Source: Aeoliella straminimaris
Lineage (GTDB): Bacteria; Planctomycetota; Planctomycetia; Pirellulales; Lacipirellulaceae
Length of the DNA stretch: 64,000 nucleotides
Assembly (NCBI RefSeq): GCF_024054565.1
Contig: NZ_JAMXLR010000003.1
Location: 124,001-188,000, forward strand
Direction: 5' to 3'
The notes under the pieces were generated by a model that saw only the letters and a list, made by a program, of their open reading frames with translations, did not search any database and had not been told where the DNA came from. This document shows, in pieces, positions 13,757 to 21,684 of this stretch. Within the stretch, counting starts at the first letter, position 1. Each line of letters starts with the position of its first letter. Both the position numbers and the translations under genes were made by a program.

Positions 13757-14094
13757 CGGCTGGGCTGCAAGCGGGAGAGAACTGTAAATCGTTTGGCAGA
13801 AACGACTTACAAATTACCTCCGCAGCGAAACCCCAAGGGTTTTGGTACCACGAATTCACCTGGGGGATTCTTCCCCGCTGGGACAAAACGCAACTGCTTT
13901 GATAATAGGAACTTGCGTGATGGGGTTTTGGTCCCGGCGAGCAAAACTCTGGAGCTCAAACAAGACCCTATATAGATAGTCCGGGCGCGCTTCTTCCAGT
14001 GAACCCGCTACACGGTGCGGATGTCTTGCTCGTCACACACCTGAGTGAGCACAGCCCATCTCTGGTACCTTTAAGGACGAACAGACAAACTTTC

Positions 14095-14129
14095 GCGAGG
14101 CCCGCACCACGCCAAGTGTCGGGCCTCGC
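14095..14129 (+). promoter_or_regulatory. Leader hairpin before hen1
   Basis: GCGAGGCCCG (14095-14104) and CGGGCCTCGC (14120-14129) form a perfect 10-bp GC-rich stem with a 15-nt loop. It lies 25 nt ahead of the hen1 ATG. It has no T-tract, so it is more likely a leader structure than a terminator. Confidence 0.5.
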
Positions 14130-14154
14130 TCCATTCACCCCCCGGGGCAATGGC

Positions 14155-15567
14155 ATGCTCCTGACCATCTCCACCACCCACACACCGGCCACCGACCTCG
14201 GTTACCTGCTGCACAAACACCCCGACCGGTGCCAGACGTTTCCGCTGTCGTTTGGCAAGGCTCACGTCTACTATCCCGAGGCGACAGCCGACCGCTGCGC
14301 GTGCTGCCTGCTGCTTGACGTCGATCCGGTCGGACTAGTTCGCGGTAAGGGTAACTGGAGCAATGGGCTGCTCGACCAGTACGTCAACGATCGGCCCTAC
14401 GTGGCGTCGTCGCTCATGAGCGTGGCGATTTCGCAGGTGTTTGGATCGGCCCTGTCTGGCAAGTCGAAGGACCGCCCGGAATTGGTGGACGTCGAGATTC
14501 CGCTCACCGCGCGAATCGATGTGCTCCCCGTGCGGAGCGGACCCAACTGCCCGGCCGCCGAGATGCTCGAGCGGATGTTCGGCCCACTCGGGTACGAGAT
14601 CACCGCCACGCGGCATCCGCTCGACGAGCAGTTCCTCGAGTGGGGCGAGAGTCCCTACTACTCCGTCGAGCTGCGGCACACCACCACCATCGCCCAACTG
14701 CTGCAGCATCTGTACGTGCTGATTCCCGTGTTCGACGGCAAGAAGCACTACTACATCGGCCCGGACGAAGTCGAGAAGCTGCTCGCCAAGGGCGAGTCGT
14801 GGCTTGGCGATCATCCGGAGAAGTCGACTATCACCCAGCGTTACTTGTCGAAGCGGCACAGCCTGGTGCGACAGGCTCTCGCGCGATTGGTCGAGGAGGA
14901 AGCAGTCGAACCGGCCGACGAAGAAGCACCGATCAGCGCTGCGCCTCCACCGACCGAGCGCGAGCTCAGCCTGCATGAACAACGTCTCGGCGCGGTGCTG
15001 GCCGCGATTCGCTCCTCGGGCGCGAAAAGAGTGGTCGACCTCGGTTGCGGCGAGGGCAAGCTGCTCCGCGAATTGCTCGCTGACGGGCAGTTCACCGAGA
15101 TCGTCGGCATGGACGTCTCCGTGCGGTCGCTGGAGATCGCCCATCGCCGACTGAAGCTCGACCGGCTGCCGGAGCGGCAGCGAGAGCGAATCCGCCTGCT
15201 GCACGGCGCCCTGACCTACCGCGACGAGCGACTGGCGAACTTCGACGCGGCCGCCATTGTCGAAGTGATTGAACACCTCGACCCGCCACGGCTGGCGGCC
15301 TTCGAACGTGTGGTGTTTGAGCATGCCCGTCCGCGGACCGTGGTCCTCACCACGCCCAACCGTGAGTATAACGTGGTGTGGGAGTCGCTCCCCGCCGGAG
15401 AGATGCGGCACAGCGATCACCGCTTCGAGTGGACGCGGGCGGAGTTTGAGACCTGGGCGGGCGGCGTGGCCGAGCAGTATGGTTATCAGGTGCGATTCTT
15501 GCCCGTGGGTCCAGAAGAAGCGGATTTGGGTGCCCCGTCGCAGATGGCCGTGTTTTCCAAAGAATGA
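14155..15567 (+). CDS. hen1: Hen1 3'-terminal RNA ribose 2'-O-methyltransferase
   Basis: A 470-aa enzyme that methylates the 2'-OH at the 3' end of a damaged RNA so that, once resealed, the site cannot be cut again. The N-terminal bacterial Hen1 domain (1-~240; MLLTISTTHTPATDLGYLLH at the start) normally helps Pnkp ligation. The C-terminal Rossmann methyltransferase has the AdoMet motif VVDLGCGEGKLL from residue 293. The Hen1 metal-site residues are Glu370, Glu373 and His374 (VEVIEH) and His419 (HSDHRFEW). The ATG at 14155 is chosen because the family N-terminus begins there. It heads the operon with two RlaP genes and Pnkp. Confidence 0.93.
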   Translation: MLLTISTTHTPATDLGYLLHKHPDRCQTFPLSFGKAHVYYPEATADRCACCLLLDVDPVGLVRGKGNWSNGLLDQYVNDRPYVASSLMSVAISQVFGSALSGKSKDRPELVDVEIPLTARIDVLPVRSGPNCPAAEMLERMFGPLGYEITATRHPLDEQFLEWGESPYYSVELRHTTTIAQLLQHLYVLIPVFDGKKHYYIGPDEVEKLLAKGESWLGDHPEKSTITQRYLSKRHSLVRQALARLVEEEAVEPADEEAPISAAPPPTERELSLHEQRLGAVLAAIRSSGAKRVVDLGCGEGKLLRELLADGQFTEIVGMDVSVRSLEIAHRRLKLDRLPERQRERIRLLHGALTYRDERLANFDAAAIVEVIEHLDPPRLAAFERVVFEHARPRTVVLTTPNREYNVVWESLPAGEMRHSDHRFEWTRAEFETWAGGVAEQYGYQVRFLPVGPEEADLGAPSQMAVFSKE

Positions 15568-15573
15568 AGGCGG

Positions 15574-15976
15574 AAGGATGAATGATGAGTGAGAACATGG
15601 TTGACTTGACGACGCGCACCAAGCAGTTTGCCTTGCTGATCATCCGGTTGTACGCAGCACTCCCTAAAACGACAGAAGCTCAGGTAATTGGAAAGCAACT
15701 GCTTCGCTCTGGTACGTCTGTCGGTGCGCACTGCCGGGAGTCGACACGAGCGAGAACTAACGCGGAATTTGTTAGCAAGATCGAGGTCGGCTTGCAGGAA
15801 CTTGAAGAGGCGGCTTACTGGATAGTACTACTCGTGCACGCCAACATAGTCGTCGCAGAACTAATTTCAGAGTTGCAGTCTGAGATCAACGAGCTCACCG
15901 CGATCCTAGTGACATGCGTGAAGAACGCCAAGGCGCGCAAGTAGCTACGACGTTTTCTCCTTCATCATTCATCCTT
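15574..15976. mobile_element. Putative four-helix-bundle cassette bounded by 15-bp inverted repeats
   Basis: AAGGATGAATGATGA (15574-15588) and its exact reverse complement (15962-15976) flank a single gene. A weaker match extends some 9 bp further inward. The left arm contains the gene's start codon. The arrangement resembles the intervening sequences found inside 23S rRNA genes of some bacteria, which carry the same protein family and have complementary ends. Calling it mobile is an inference; no target-site duplication was established. Confidence 0.5.
15582..15944 (+). CDS. Four-helix-bundle protein (23S rRNA IVS type)
   Basis: A 120-aa (or 119-aa from the next ATG) all-helical protein of the S23/IVS-encoded family. 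Recognisable features are the N-terminal TKQFALLIIRLYAALP helix, KQLLRSGTSVGAHCRESTRA, the EFVSKIEVGLQELEEAAYWI helix and a final long helix. The family forms pentameric four-helix bundles; its cellular role is unsettled, with RNA contact suspected. The gene starts 14 bp after hen1 stops, with GGAAGGA as ribosome-binding site, so it is transcribed within the repair operon. Its flanking inverted repeat suggests it was inserted as a unit. Confidence 0.88.
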   Translation: MMSENMVDLTTRTKQFALLIIRLYAALPKTTEAQVIGKQLLRSGTSVGAHCRESTRARTNAEFVSKIEVGLQELEEAAYWIVLLVHANIVVAELISELQSEINELTAILVTCVKNAKARK

Positions 15977-16074
15977 TTATGAACTCGCCGGACCTCTTCG
16001 ACTCAAAGGGTACCCACGCCAGTTGCCAACCAAGCCGCGTTTGACAACTGGATTGACTTGCGAAAGGAACCAAC

Positions 16075-17196
16075 ATGATGCCCCTCAGTTACTCTATCCG
16101 CATATCGCTCGGAGTGATCACCGCTACCGTGCTCGGGATGTCGATGGCAAGCGTTTCGCGATCGGCCACGCCGGCAACTGATTCCTCGAGCTGGACCATT
16201 ATCGACGGCGCGGTTTACGGAGCGAAGCCCGATGCCCGTGGCCCGATTGGCGGTGCGGCGGGTTACGTCGACATCGTTACCGGCGGAGACTACACCGTAC
16301 GCACGGTAGACCAACTGCTTGACGCGCTGACGCAGGCACAGGCGGGTGAGGTCGTCTTCCTTCCGGGCGACGTGGAAGTAAACCTCACTGCACCGGTTTA
16401 CATCGAGCGATTGGTGCTGGAGATACCCGCAGGCGTAACACTCGCGAGCAATCGAGGCCAGCAGGGCTCGTCAGGTGCTCTACTGTTGTGCGACGCACTC
16501 GATACGCCCGTCGTGTTGAAGCCGGTTGGACCGAACGTACGAGTGACCGGACTGCGGCTCAAGGGACCGAATGACAGGCGGTACCTGGATCATCATCGGC
16601 GTTCGTTCGGCGAAGGGGGCAAGGGCCGGGAGTACTACTACAAGCTCCCCACGTCGAACGGCATTGTCTGCCATGTACCCAAGCTCACCGTCGATAACTG
16701 TGAAATCAAGGGCTTCTCCCACGCGGGTGTCTTCCTTCGCGGCGGTGATGGCCACCATATTCATCACAACTATATCCACCATTGCCAGTACAATGGCCTC
16801 GGCTACGGCGTATGCCACGCCGACTCGCAGTCGCTCATCGAATACAACCTGTTCAACTGGAACCGACACTCGATTGCGGGCACGGGTCAGCCGGGGTGCA
16901 GCTACACGGCGCGGCACAACGTCGAACTCGGCGAGTCGCTCAGCCACTGCTTCGACATGCACGGAGGACGCGATCGCAAAGATGGTACGAACATCGCAGG
17001 TACGACCATCCGCATTGAGAACAATACGTTCGGTGCCGAGAAGCTGCCGATCAAGATCCGCGGCGTGCCGGAGCAAAGTTGCGACGTCTCGAAAAACTGG
17101 TTTCCCAATCACCAAGCCCCAGCCGATGCCGTTGTAGCGGCCGAAAAGACGCATGTCTCGGACAACGCTTACGGCGCGCCCGCCGTTGTCAAATGA
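16075..17196 (+). CDS. Secreted right-handed beta-helix protein
   Basis: A 373-aa exported protein. A signal peptide (about 1-30, ISLGVITATVLGMSMAS) is followed by a domain starting TVDQLLDALTQAQAGEVVFLPG, a typical entry into a pectate-lyase-type parallel beta helix. Coils continue through PKLTVDNCEIKGFSHAGVFL, HHIHHNYIHHCQYNGLGYG and IRIENNTFG. Several His-rich turns (GGDGHHIHHNYIHH) could bind metal or sugar. It may be a polysaccharide lyase or a nitrous/copper-type binding protein; the substrate is unknown. AAAGGA precedes its ATG. It lies in the middle of the RNA-repair operon yet has an extracytoplasmic destination, so its link to repair is doubtful. Confidence 0.78.
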   Translation: MMPLSYSIRISLGVITATVLGMSMASVSRSATPATDSSSWTIIDGAVYGAKPDARGPIGGAAGYVDIVTGGDYTVRTVDQLLDALTQAQAGEVVFLPGDVEVNLTAPVYIERLVLEIPAGVTLASNRGQQGSSGALLLCDALDTPVVLKPVGPNVRVTGLRLKGPNDRRYLDHHRRSFGEGGKGREYYYKLPTSNGIVCHVPKLTVDNCEIKGFSHAGVFLRGGDGHHIHHNYIHHCQYNGLGYGVCHADSQSLIEYNLFNWNRHSIAGTGQPGCSYTARHNVELGESLSHCFDMHGGRDRKDGTNIAGTTIRIENNTFGAEKLPIKIRGVPEQSCDVSKNWFPNHQAPADAVVAAEKTHVSDNAYGAPAVVK

Positions 17197-17218
17197 CCTT
17201 TGCCCAAACCGCCAGCCC

Positions 17219-18184
17219 ATGAAATCCCGCGTCCACACAGGACCGAACCTCATCTACTCCGTAGGTACCCAGGTCGTTGCACTCAAGGCCGTTCAAGGGT
17301 CCGACGGGAAGGCTGTGCACCCGGCGGGGGCAGTGGGCGTGGTGGTGCGTTCGCCGCTGGATCAGAATCACTCCTATCGCATCCGCTTTCCGGATGGCTT
17401 CGAAGCGCTGCTGCACCATCACCAATTGATGTTGCTCGCCCAGTGGAAGGCGATGCCATCCGGCCAGGGCGACGTGGGCCACTCCAACCCAGCCCTGTCG
17501 ACGCACGGGCTGTTCGACCGCGTGATCTATCGGTGCGTGGTCGGCTCGCGGGCGTTCGGGCTCGACACCGACGAGTCGGATACCGATCGCCGCGGCATCT
17601 ACCTGCCATCCGCCGAGCTCGAATGGTCGTTGTACGGTGTGCCCGAGCAACTGGAAAACGAGGGTTCCGATGAGTGTTATTGGGAAATCCAAAAATTCCT
17701 GGTCATGGCCCTGAAGGGGAACCCCAACATTCTGGAGTGCCTGTATACGCCGCTGGTGGAGTTCGCCACGCCGCTGGCCGAGGAGCTGCTGGCGATGCGC
17801 GACGCCTTCCTCTCGCGGCTGGTGTACCAGACCTACAACGGCTACGTGATGAGCCAGTTCAAGCGAATGCAGGCCGACCTCAGGAGCCACGGCCGCATCA
17901 AACCCAAACACGTCATGCACCTGGTGCGACTACTGCTCTCGGGCATCCACGTGCTCCGCGAGGGTTTCGTACCGGTCGACGTCGGCCAGCACCGCGAGCG
18001 ACTGTTCGCGATCAAGACGGAGCAGATGCCATGGGACGAGATCGAGGCCTGGCGCAAAGAGCTGCATAAAGATTTCGACCGGGCGCTCGAAGAATCGAAG
18101 CTACCGGAGCGGCCGGACTACGAGCGAGCGAATGCATTTTTGGTGCGGGCGCGGAGGTTGGCGGTGGGAGAGGAGTTGCCGTGA
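17219..18184 (+). CDS. RlaP-type nucleotidyltransferase with SH3-like N-terminus
   Basis: A 321-aa protein of the RNA-repair-associated DNA-polymerase-beta superfamily (RlaP). The catalytic core shows VVGSRAFGLDTDESDTDRRG, with the nucleotide-binding Gly109-Ser110 and metal-binding Asp121 and Asp123; Asp151 aligns with the third carboxylate. An all-helical domain follows (HVMHLVRLLLSGIHVLREG). Residues 10-75 form an added small beta domain (GTQVVALKAVQ...GAVGVVVRSPLDQNHSYRIRF) that reads like an SH3/KOW-type barrel. Such enzymes are thought to add nucleotides to RNA ends before sealing. The start at 17219 is preferred; an ATG at 17153 would overlap the beta-helix gene. Confidence 0.85.
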   Translation: MKSRVHTGPNLIYSVGTQVVALKAVQGSDGKAVHPAGAVGVVVRSPLDQNHSYRIRFPDGFEALLHHHQLMLLAQWKAMPSGQGDVGHSNPALSTHGLFDRVIYRCVVGSRAFGLDTDESDTDRRGIYLPSAELEWSLYGVPEQLENEGSDECYWEIQKFLVMALKGNPNILECLYTPLVEFATPLAEELLAMRDAFLSRLVYQTYNGYVMSQFKRMQADLRSHGRIKPKHVMHLVRLLLSGIHVLREGFVPVDVGQHRERLFAIKTEQMPWDEIEAWRKELHKDFDRALEESKLPERPDYERANAFLVRARRLAVGEELP

Positions 18185-18213
18185 CAGACAACACACATGC
18201 AATTAATGCGAAA

Positions 18214-18286
18214 AACACAGAGTTCACAGAGAGGCACTGAGCTAAGGCAAGCCCCAAACTCTGCGACCTCTGTGTTCTCTGTGGTT
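18214..18286. repeat. Imperfect palindromic repeat between the two RlaP genes
   Basis: The left arm AACACAGAGTTCACAGAGAG and the reverse complement of the right arm, AACCACAGAGAACACAGAGG, match at most positions over about 28 bp each side. The arms are built from CACAGAG units. This is a REP-like element in a 114-bp gap inside the operon; a transcript would form a long hairpin. Confidence 0.55.
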
Positions 18287-18298
18287 AGATAGATTGAT

Positions 18299-19069
18299 AT
18301 GAACGCCCAAACCATCGACTACTCCAAACTGCAGCGTCAAGTCGACGCCCACCCGTACCCGCTGCTGTTCGCCACGATCAGCGGCGCGCACCTCTATGGT
18401 TTTCCATCGGCTGATTCCGATTTTGATTTGCGAGGCGTGCACCTGCTGCCGCTGGAGCAAGTAGTCGGTTTGGACCCCGGTGAAGAGACCGTCGAAAAAG
18501 AGGGCATCCACGATGGGCTGGAGATGGACCTGGTGACGCACGACGCGAAGAAGTTCTTCACGCTGATGCTCAGGAAGAATGGCTACGTGCTGGAGCAGTT
18601 GCTCTCGCCTCTGGTGGTGCATACCACGCCGGAGCACGAGGAACTGAAGTCCATCGCCCAGGACTGCATCACCAGGTTCCACGGGCACCACTACCTCGGC
18701 TTTGCGGCAACGCAGTGGAAGCTGTTTGGCAAAGACGATCCGCCGAAGGTCAAGCCCCTGCTGTACGTCTATCGCGTACTGCTGACCGGCATCCACCTGA
18801 TGCGAACCGGCCAGGTGGAAGCCAATTTGCTGACGCTCAACCAGGCGGCCAAGCTGCCCTACATCGACGAACTCGTGGAGCGAAAGCTCGCGGGCGCCGA
18901 AAAGGGCACACTCGACACGGCGGACCTCACGTTCCACGAGCGGGAGTATGTGCGGCTAATCGGTGAGCTGGAGTCTGCAATGGAGAAGTCGACTTTGCCA
19001 GAACAAGCGACTGGTAAGGCGGTGCTGAATGACTTGCTGGTACGGCTGCGGACGGAACGAAAGGAATAG
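18299..19069 (+). CDS. Second RlaP-type nucleotidyltransferase
   Basis: A 256-aa paralogue of the preceding protein without the SH3-like extension. The catalytic block is ATISGAHLYGFPSADSDFDLRG: the metal-binding Asp41 and Asp43 are kept, as is Asp77 (EMDLVTHDAKKFF), but the usual Gly-Ser is Ser-Gly-Ala, a change in the nucleotide-binding turn. The helical C-terminal part (VKPLLYVYRVLLTGIHLMRTG) matches the first copy. It probably adds nucleotides to RNA ends, perhaps with a different specificity from its partner. It ends 11 bp before pnkp and is cotranscribed. Confidence 0.85.
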   Translation: MNAQTIDYSKLQRQVDAHPYPLLFATISGAHLYGFPSADSDFDLRGVHLLPLEQVVGLDPGEETVEKEGIHDGLEMDLVTHDAKKFFTLMLRKNGYVLEQLLSPLVVHTTPEHEELKSIAQDCITRFHGHHYLGFAATQWKLFGKDDPPKVKPLLYVYRVLLTGIHLMRTGQVEANLLTLNQAAKLPYIDELVERKLAGAEKGTLDTADLTFHEREYVRLIGELESAMEKSTLPEQATGKAVLNDLLVRLRTERKE

Positions 19070-19080
19070 TAAGTAGGTCA

Positions 19081-21684
19081 ATGCCTGAACTCGCCATCCC
19101 CAACCTATCCCTCGTTGTCCTGATCGGCCCCAGTGGTTCCGGCAAGAGCACCTTTGCGCGCCAGCATTTCCTGCCGACCGAGGTGCTCTCGAGTGATTAT
19201 TGCCGCGGATTGGTGAGCGATGACGAAAACAATCAGTTCGCGACAAACGACGCCTTTGATGTGTTGTACTACATCGCCGGTAAGCGGCTCGCGGCGGGGC
19301 GGCTGACCGTGGTCGATGCGACCAACGTGCAGCGGGAGGCGCGGGCGCCGCTGGTATCGCTGGCGAGGAAGTACCACACACTGCCGGTGGCCATCGTGTT
19401 TAACCTGCCAGAGGATCTCTGCCAGGAGCGAAACCGCGACCGAGCGGATCGGGAGTTTGGCCGGCATGTCATTCGTCAGCAACGCTCGCAGCTGCGGCGG
19501 TCGATCAAGAGCCTCAAGCGGGAGGGCTTTCGCCATATCTTCGTGCTCAACTCGCCTGAGGAGGTCGACGCGGTCACCATCCAGCGAACGCCGCTGTGGA
19601 ACGACCGCCGCGACGAGCACGGTCCGCTGGACTTCATCGGCGACGTGCACGGCTGCTGCGACGAGTTGGAAGAGTTGCTCGTGCAGCTTGGCTATGAAAG
19701 TCAGCCGATCGGAAGCACTGGCCCGGGCTGGTCACCCCTGCACTATGTGCATGCCGCCGGCCGCAAGGCGGTGTTCGTCGGCGACCTGGTCGATCGCGGA
19801 CCGAGGGTCCTCGACACCGTGAGCCTGGTGCGGAACATGGTCGCCTCGGGCAACGCCCTGTGCGTGCCGGGCAACCACGACACGAAGTTGATGCGCAAGC
19901 TTCGCGGCCGCGACGTGCAGATTGCGCACGGGCTGGCCGAGTCGCTCGCAGAAATCGACGCGGTGCCCGAAGACCAGCGAGACACCTTCACTAAAGAACT
20001 GGCGGACTTTCTCGACAGCCTGGTGAGCCACTACGTGCTCGACGATGGCAAGATTGTCGTTGCGCACGCCGGGATGAAGGAATCGATGCAGGGGCGTGGT
20101 TCCGGTAAGGTGCGCGATTTTGCCCTGTACGGTGAGACCACCGGCGAGACCGACGAGTTTGGCCTGCCGGTCCGCTACCCGTGGGCCGCCGAGTACCGTG
20201 GCAGCGCGATGGTGGTGTACGGCCACACGCCGGTGCCCGAGACGGAGTGGCTGAACAAGACGATCAACATCGACACGGGCTGCGTATTCGGCGGCGCGCT
20301 GACCGCGCTTCGCTATCCGGAACTCGAGACGCTCTCGGTCAAGGCCCAGCAAACCTACTGCGAGCCGGCCCGGCCGTTTCTGGCGGACGATCAGAAGTCG
20401 CCTGCGCTTTCCTCGCAGCACGCGCACGACGATCTGTTGGACCTGGCCGACGTGACCGGCAAGCGGATCATCTCCACCCGGCTGCGGCACAACGTGACCA
20501 TCCGCGAAGAGAACGGCACCGCCGCCCTGGAGGTGATGAGCCGGTTTGCCGCGAACCCCAAGTGGCTGGTCTATCTGCCGCCGACGATGTCGCCTTCGGA
20601 AACAAGCACCAAGCGAGGTTACTTGGAGCATCCCGAGGAAGCACTGGCCTACTACCGCAGCCAAGGCATGCCGCAGGTTGTGTGCCAGGAGAAGCACATG
20701 GGCTCGCGGGCGGTGGTCGTAGTGTGTCGAGACGAAGCAGCCGCGGCGGAGCGATTCGGCGTGGAGGGCGAAGCCGGCATCATCACCACGCGTACCGGTC
20801 GCCGGTTCTTCAACGACACTGCGCTCGAAGCGGTGTTGCTCGAACGGGTGCGTCAGGCGCTCACGAAGGCCGGTTTCTGGGATGAGTTCGCTACCGATTG
20901 GGTGGTGCTCGACTGTGAGTTGATGCCGTGGTCGGCCAAGGCTCAGGAATTGCTAAAATCGCAGTACGCCGCGGTGGGCTCGGCGGCCCGGGGCGCACTA
21001 CCGGCGGTACTCGAGTCGCTTCGCGCTGCAACTTCCCGACTGCACGGAGAGGAATCCGAACTTCTGGAAGGTCTTCAGGAGCAATTCGAACAGCGGGCCG
21101 AAACCGCCGGGCAGTTCGTCGCCGCCTACCGCCACTACTGCTGGCCAGTGGAGTCGGTGGACGACCTTAAGCTCGCACCGTTTCACATCCTGGCCACCCA
21201 AGGTCGCACGCACGTGCAGCAGAACCACCACTGGCACATGCAGACTCTCGCCAAGGTCTGCCAGCAAGATCCACAGGTGATGCTCGCCACGCCTTATCGC
21301 GTGGTCGACGTGACCGACCAGGAGCAGGTGGCCGAGGCGACCAACTGGTGGACCGAACTTAATAGCCGCGGCGGCGAGGGCATGGTAGTCAAGCCGCTAG
21401 ACTATATCGCCAAAGGCAAGAAGGGCTTGCTGCAGCCGGCCGTGAAGTGCCGGGGCCGCGAGTACCTGCGGATCATCTATGGCCCGGACTACACGAGCGA
21501 CGAGAACCTGTCGCGGCTACGCAAGCGGGGGCTCGGCGCGAAGCGTTCGCTGGCCCTGCGTGAGTTCGCACTGGGCATCGAGGCGCTCGAGCGATTCGTC
21601 CGCCGCGAACCACTCCGGCGAGTGCACGAATGCGTGTTCGGTGTACTTGCGCTCGAGAGCGAACCGGTCGACCCGCGACTGTAG
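19081..21684 (+). CDS. pnkp: Polynucleotide kinase-phosphatase-ligase (Pnkp)
   Basis: An 867-aa three-domain RNA-repair enzyme. Residues 1-~170 are the 5'-OH kinase (P-loop GPSGSGKST, 16-24). Residues ~180-420 are a metallophosphoesterase that removes 2',3'-cyclic phosphate or 3'-phosphate (DFIGDVHGC from 184, GDLVDRGP from 234, GNHD from 264). The remainder is an adenylyltransferase ligase with the nucleotidyl-lysine Lys538 in EKHMGSR, followed by GEGMVVKPLDY and a KCRGREYLRIIYG tail module. Length equals that of well-studied bacterial Pnkp (about 870 aa). Bacterial Pnkp seals RNA together with Hen1, encoded at the head of this operon. Confidence 0.95.
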   Translation: MPELAIPNLSLVVLIGPSGSGKSTFARQHFLPTEVLSSDYCRGLVSDDENNQFATNDAFDVLYYIAGKRLAAGRLTVVDATNVQREARAPLVSLARKYHTLPVAIVFNLPEDLCQERNRDRADREFGRHVIRQQRSQLRRSIKSLKREGFRHIFVLNSPEEVDAVTIQRTPLWNDRRDEHGPLDFIGDVHGCCDELEELLVQLGYESQPIGSTGPGWSPLHYVHAAGRKAVFVGDLVDRGPRVLDTVSLVRNMVASGNALCVPGNHDTKLMRKLRGRDVQIAHGLAESLAEIDAVPEDQRDTFTKELADFLDSLVSHYVLDDGKIVVAHAGMKESMQGRGSGKVRDFALYGETTGETDEFGLPVRYPWAAEYRGSAMVVYGHTPVPETEWLNKTINIDTGCVFGGALTALRYPELETLSVKAQQTYCEPARPFLADDQKSPALSSQHAHDDLLDLADVTGKRIISTRLRHNVTIREENGTAALEVMSRFAANPKWLVYLPPTMSPSETSTKRGYLEHPEEALAYYRSQGMPQVVCQEKHMGSRAVVVVCRDEAAAAERFGVEGEAGIITTRTGRRFFNDTALEAVLLERVRQALTKAGFWDEFATDWVVLDCELMPWSAKAQELLKSQYAAVGSAARGALPAVLESLRAATSRLHGEESELLEGLQEQFEQRAETAGQFVAAYRHYCWPVESVDDLKLAPFHILATQGRTHVQQNHHWHMQTLAKVCQQDPQVMLATPYRVVDVTDQEQVAEATNWWTELNSRGGEGMVVKPLDYIAKGKKGLLQPAVKCRGREYLRIIYGPDYTSDENLSRLRKRGLGAKRSLALREFALGIEALERFVRREPLRRVHECVFGVLALESEPVDPRL

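Follow-up and report, generated by a model that had tools for sequence, protein, structure and literature searches.

The closest known thing to the element described here is the intervening sequence (IVS) of 23S rRNA, which in Coxiella and Leptospira carries a gene of the IVP/S23p protein family, measures about 430 nt and has complementary ends. Partial parallels are offered by the RAYT proteins, which are relatives of HUH-type transposases, and by the Rickettsia palindromic elements, which insert in frame within protein genes and carry no gene. In the available portions of one report, rRNA IVSs are said to have been identified more than 25 years ago and to be of unclear origin, older proposals being a transposition remnant or a mobile element, and the Coxiella IVS is described with a 28-bp terminal stem, excision by RNase III and GACAGAT heptamers before its gene (PMC4990558). 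Tandem heptamers are also described from Xanthomonas (GGGAATC, with 70 and 75 convergent inverted pairs in two genomes), Beggiatoaceae (TAACTGA) and cyanobacteria such as Nostoc; they are mostly intergenic and, as far as the accessible text of the two papers goes, come without an IVP gene, so that the link is drawn here (PMC4692102, PMC4679880). The first of these papers, in the same portions, generally found no association of heptamers with mobile elements (PMC4692102). REPIN/RAYT systems likewise comprise one gene with repeats of its own and, scattered without the gene, inverted pairs of these repeats (PMC3116915, in part), and Avd of diversity-generating retroelements is kin of IVP in fold and family, according to the available part of its source (PMC10053308).

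In the window, by which we mean the whole 64-kb stretch of DNA that was analysed, an IVP gene surrounded by complementary ends is present as in the rRNA IVS, yet it lies between hen1 and a beta-helix gene, and its kin lie between or inside protein genes, not in 23S rRNA (Table 1). The initial annotation had reported a perfect 15-bp inverted repeat at the two ends of this gene, and the description is exact, since 15574-15588 and 15962-15976 are exact complements over 15 nt, and no other perfect inverted pair of 15 nt or longer, with arms at most 1 kb apart, occurs in the window. Its proposed kinship with rRNA intervening sequences is supported as well, the protein family and the complementary ends being the same and the layout recurring across phyla. 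Ungapped extension of both arms gives 22 nt with 20 of 22 positions complementary (15574-15595 and 15955-15976). The repeat, although present as described, had been noted without its heptads, and a better reading is a pair of inverted arrays, built of a GGATGAA-like 7-nt unit, on either side of the IVP gene.

Table 1. Features of the window (positions in the window) and host genes of IVP elements found inside protein genes
Feature	Location	Strand	Basis or remark
hen1, 3'-terminal RNA ribose 2'-O-methyltransferase	13999..15567	+	TIGR04074; stop codon 15565-15567
Left array, four heptads GGCGGAA GGATGAA TGATGAG TGAGAAC	15569..15596	+	sequence; period 7 family-wide
Left arm of inverted repeat, 22 nt	15574..15595	+	20/22 complementary to right arm, first 15 nt exact
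IVP gene, four-helix-bundle protein	15582..15944	+	PF05635 / TIGR02436; 120 aa from ATG 15582; start maybe 15585 or 15597
Right array, minus-strand reading GGATGAA TGATGAA GGAGAAA	15954..15974	-	sequence
Right arm of inverted repeat	15955..15976	-	
Beta-helix protein gene, likewise between hen1 and first rlaP	16075..17196	+	PF13229
Two rlaP and pnkp, RNA-repair operon	17153..21684	+	PF10127 twice, TIGR04075
Host: DnaE-type polymerase	L155, G267		L155: Pfam domains 210-463 and 643-784, element 479-629
Host: DNA methylases	L136, L140, L137		
Host: hsdM	L101, L102, L124, L126		possibly decayed; only L124 and L101 Pfam-searched

The left array spans from 1 nt after the hen1 stop codon up to ATG 15597, and this bears on the earlier statement that the left copy of the repeat contains the start codon. 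The ATGs at 15582, 15585 and 15597 are all in frame. With either of the first two the statement may stand, but the third, equally in frame, lies 6 residues ahead of a conserved RT..FA motif, which is the commonest distance in relatives (11 of the 49 with an in-frame ATG, 52 having been examined), and a start there would put the whole left array upstream of the gene.

Perfect 15-nt pairs within 1 kb are in themselves no rarity in this genome (two 400-kb stretches hold 8 and 15), which on its own would favour a chance match. Among 20 dinucleotide-shuffled windows, 2 contained a perfect pair of at least 15 nt. The flank score of the window gene, 16, was however reached by none of 500 dinucleotide shuffles of its flanks, and inverted flanks recur throughout the family, so that a chance origin is refuted and can be given practically no weight. 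Because of the heptad structure and the matching layout at other IVP genes, the repeat exceeds chance.

The arrays are the layout of the family. All six IVP genes in the window's genome have inverted arrays, with a different unit each time (TCGGCTG, GTGAGTA and AATGACC among them), and across four samples 115 of 132 IVP loci have inverted flanks, against 0-4.4% of control placements. The individual counts are 14 of 16 loci in four genomes of the genus (controls 0/79), 26 of 29 phylum-wide (controls 4.4% of 135), 65 of 77 for the window's subfamily in many other phyla (controls 2.3% of 1900) and 10 of 10 on cyanobacterial plasmids (controls 1.0% of 197); these samples are not independent, and the plasmid set contains near-identical records. 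Flanks were counted as inverted at a score of at least 12, the controls being displaced placements within the same loci; for the genus, a count by eye gave 15 of 16 and the fixed threshold, used here, 14 of 16 (L020 scores 11 and L024 8), and three of 80 subfamily rows were left out for having less than 60 nt of flank (L072, L088, L127). A first control, in which upstream and downstream flanks were paired across different loci, proved useless for the window's subfamily (null 95th percentile 19) because its loci share the unit. The mean self-match of the arms is 0.55-0.68 at lag 7 and 0.20-0.38 at lags 3-6 and 8-13, a few IVP groups repeating at 8 rather than 7. Seventeen of the 132 loci fall below the threshold; L024 is a decayed copy without arrays. 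The window copy has the inverted period-7 arrays around its gene that would mark an IVP-array mobile element.

A second, unrelated small gene occurs in a similar frame. PDDEXK_3 ('GxxExxY') genes, 10 in the window's genome and 10 in three genomes of the genus (L164-L183), have the same architecture: inverted short-repeat flanks enclose 19 of the 20 (controls 2.2% of 92), and their best period is mostly 8, 9 or 10 and not 7.

The initial annotation had called the window gene a four-helix-bundle gene, and it matches both PF05635 (E 6.5e-18, 65.3 bits against a curated cut-off of 33.8) and TIGR02436 (4e-22, 78.5 bits against 24). IVP is an Avd-like four-helix bundle; structures of relatives are available (2rld and 2gsc), and the solved relatives are pentamers. 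The IVP ORF alone in the window element has a family match among Pfam and TIGRFAM profiles, with no transposase, nuclease or reverse transcriptase, and the element thus differs from insertion sequences and DNA transposons, which encode a transposase. Unlike RAYT, IVP has no recognised catalytic motif, and its repeat is a tandem 7-mer array; unlike the setting of Avd, no reverse transcriptase, template repeat or variable repeat was noticed in the 400-500 bp IVP elements read. Four IVP pairs with usable Ks gave Ka/Ks of 0.08-0.10 (of seven pairs run, two with Ks of about 0.01 gave uninformative values of 0.86 and 0.31, and one was saturated). Purifying selection of this strength (Ka/Ks of about 0.1) is observed directly and argues that the IVP protein is used, whereas the Coxiella IVP is described, in the available part of the paper, as decaying and probably unexpressed (PMC4990558).

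The position of the gene raises the question of a role in RNA repair. It lies, as the initial annotation stated, inside the operon; it stands between hen1 and rlaP/pnkp on the same strand, with a single nucleotide separating the hen1 stop from the left array, as an accessory of the Hen1-RlaP-Pnkp repair system might. Conservation in the operon was however absent: none of 20 other Hen1 loci of the order, searched over up to about 1.5 kb per side, gave a tblastn match to the window IVP, at L033 hen1 continues directly into rlaP, and other loci hold unrelated small genes. For these reasons the RNA-repair setting is probably incidental, although on cyanobacterial plasmids IVP elements also adjoin genes annotated as DISARM, BREX and CRISPR. 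A functional accessory of the repair system is a very improbable reading, which we reject on the lack of matches at the other Hen1 loci. The best explanation is that the window element landed right after the hen1 stop, in a junction that is variable among relatives, and that its IVP is no working part of RNA repair. The junction 3' of hen1 (window 15568-17152; L026-L032) is insertion-prone and holds various small genes depending on the genome. On the cyanobacterial plasmids, the elements at L184-L186, L192 and L193 are flanked by drmD and pglX or mmeI, by csx2 and cas1, and by nrdB and nrdA.

A scan of host ORFs at 134 loci (115 IVP and 19 GxxExxY) identified elements lying inside protein genes. 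At 8 of the 115 IVP loci, and at G267, the element lies within a host protein gene whose frame is open throughout, with IVP in another frame. The open stretch covers 430-450 nt in dnaE-like and DNA-methylase genes, and for the polymerase and the L136-type methylase there are empty relatives with an uninterrupted frame. The hsdM hosts may be dead, since part of the methylase domain appears to be missing. We did not count as insertions L018 and L147 (long antisense open frames with no Pfam match) or L158 and L163 (too little open flank). These in-frame positions resemble those of Rickettsia palindromic elements, from which the IVP elements differ in nesting a gene in another frame; the window copy, behind the hen1 stop, is not in an ORF. 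At L155 and L276, the IVP and host polymerase frames overlap on the same strand for about 110-150 codons.

The open host frames bear on the possibility that the element acts at the RNA level, the stem of the transcribed arrays being cut by RNase III as in 23S rRNA and the IVP RNA being freed from the hen1 mRNA. The arms do pair in the predicted fold of the window element, and the Coxiella IVS, with its terminal inverted repeats, heptamers and RNase III excision, offers a precedent in the accessible text (PMC4990558). The predicted fold of the whole element is however not unusually stable (z -1.23; 12 of 100 shuffles did equally well), and IVP genes show no tie to RNA-repair loci. A host frame kept open over 430-450 nt would serve no purpose in RNA that is removed, and cutting that RNA would do damage. 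RNase III excision, as in the 23S rRNA IVS, is unneeded where the host frame is open; such frames fit RNA that is translated through and not removed, which argues against obligatory excision. Obligatory RNA excision is thus weakened, and we consider an RNA-level element unlikely. The earlier suggestion that the element is cut from the mRNA and could itself be a repair substrate found no support, given the 20 Hen1 loci without a nearby IVP match, the unrelated neighbours elsewhere and the open host frames.

The unit of the arrays follows the protein. Protein identity and unit similarity are correlated (Mantel r 0.616, equalled in 0 of 2000 permutations, N=95), as they are in planctomycetes alone (r 0.327, 3 of 2000, N=36), the test being confined to the 95 IVP loci with a score of at least 14 and no stop in the matched region. 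For the window unit, the mean similarity is 0.68 to its subfamily in other genomes and phyla, against 0.44 to the units of the remaining IVP loci in the window's genome. The array unit therefore follows the protein clade across phyla and not the host genome, and array and gene travel together. We infer that the IVP protein reads its array; a match between unit and clade would also be expected if array and gene were merely co-inherited.

Filled and empty versions of the same site are observed directly. An IVP element on Trichormus variabilis plasmids is present in three records and missing from six with 97% identical flanks; comparison of its junction between two filled and two empty records shows an exact insertion, with 5-bp GTAAT on both sides and a single GTAAT in the empty site, and L196 is a truncated copy at the same site. 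Three further plasmid elements have empty relatives, with ends that are less clear. In one planctomycete genus the element is found in G179 and missing in G147 and G265, and in a second it is found in G215, G194, G273, G272 and G269 and missing in G270, G274 and G276, the host sequence around the G179-type and G215-type sites being itself variable. Moreover, L087 of Microbulbifer, a member of the window's subfamily, is filled in G277 and G323 and empty in relatives such as G301, G295, G296 and G299, G296 and G299 having a short remnant-like hairpin of the unit there; the surrounding intergenic sequence differs among relatives, and the exact event is not readable. The GTAAT duplication is one clean case set against no general excess of flanking direct repeats of at least 5 nt, which occur at 14% of 35, 11% of 53 and 22% of 9 loci (null values 13%, 13% and 23%). 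In the host methylase gene of G276, L287 has a different short insertion-like stretch where relatives have the IVP element, which marks the methylase site as a variable hot spot.

The proposal of a mobile cassette, made in the initial annotation, is thus supported by the recurrence of the layout across phyla and by filled and empty sites in relatives. It had called for a search for the repeat with and without the gene and for empty-site alleles, and had doubted its own reading should no other copy and no empty allele exist anywhere; both exist in relatives. For the window element itself the search gave less: its genome holds no exact second copy, and for the locus no clean empty allele was found, only gene-content differences at the hen1 junction, the filled and empty alleles being those of other members.

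Arrays also occur without a gene, mostly in genomes that carry the cognate one. Exact matches to GAATGCGGAATGCG number 65, 118 and 99 in G277, G323 and G317, the three Microbulbifer genomes that carry the cognate gene, and 41 in G305, which has no IVP gene at all; in the rest of the 48 Microbulbifer genomes there are 4 (G299), 1 (G296), 1 (G324) and 0 in 41. These counts are not loci, as overlapping 14-mers inflate them; the reversed-pattern control gave 0 or 1. The chance that all three gene-bearing genomes fall within the four with at least 40 matches is 4/17296, assuming independent genomes, which they are not. G301, whose flanks are most nearly identical to those of G277, lacks both gene and arrays, and the IVP of G299 has a different unit. 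Several Microbulbifer arrays are geneless inverted pairs whose loops are unrelated, and therefore do not derive from full elements by simple deletion. G179 has palindromes of the octamer AGGCACGG with loops of 7-12 nt at the three places read. Geneless copies dispersed in gene-bearing genomes, as in MITEs or REPINs, are thus present in Microbulbifer and in G179; the 864 kb of the window's genome (G000) hold only a few short, possible geneless pairs of heptamer type. At L351, in G299, an IVP gene has a perfect 32-nt inverted repeat of CGGGACT units between flanking genes that we take to be carA and carB, and at L352, in G317, the arrays of the IVP element enclose an extra ORF, presumably an IS256-type transposase.

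The geneless arrays also give room to the main rival, a passive model in which heptamer arrays arise by themselves, through slippage or as terminator or mRNA-stabilising hairpins, and IVP genes are moved by recombination between arrays or on other elements. The unrelated loops, the 41 matches in a genome without the gene (G305) and the position of the L087 element, which abuts two gene ends where relatives show a terminator-like hairpin, all agree with such an origin. It accounts poorly for a unit that tracks the protein clade and not the genome, for array matches concentrated in genomes with the cognate gene while G301 lacks both, and for purifying selection on IVP, and we regard it as a minority reading, somewhat ahead of the RNA-level one.

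Since similar cassettes are gained and lost, and spread their repeats, in numerous unrelated bacteria, we favour a mobile element over a part of RNA repair: the window element is probably one copy of a widespread mobile IVP-array element of about 400-500 bp, with a unit matched to the protein clade. Such an element would consist of two inverted arrays of a unit of 7 nt (sometimes 8 nt) around the IVP gene. The IVP pentamer would bind its own array, either as DNA or as a transcribed stem, and might, together with host enzymes, copy or move array-bounded DNA to new sites, geneless copies included; arrays could later lengthen or shorten by slippage. A cDNA step may be involved, as for the cousin Avd in the available part of its source (PMC10053308).

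What is new here is the joining of the IVP gene family to heptamer arrays outside rRNA, which looks like a little-noticed mobile element. In the titles and abstract openings of open-licence PMC papers we found no link between IVP genes and such arrays, which is not proof of absence. More tentatively, and as a possibility that we would put below even chances, the elements could be mobile DNA of a new class. A four-helix-bundle pentamer that is no enzyme, and not a transposase, would read the 7-nt code of its own terminal arrays and spread itself along with geneless arrays, possibly through an RNA or cDNA step as in Avd. The heptamers of cyanobacteria (presumably the repeats named STRR), Xanthomonas and Beggiatoaceae would then be satellites, the rRNA IVS one landing site, and the GxxExxY (PDDEXK_3) genes with their inverted arrays of 8-10 nt a parallel system. 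Bacterial heptamer repeats and rRNA intervening sequences are both without an explained origin, and one gene family with protein-matched arrays provides a testable origin for both. At the same time, it offers a way to read the frequent annotation 'four helix bundle protein' and cautions against deducing the function of such proteins from neighbour genes.
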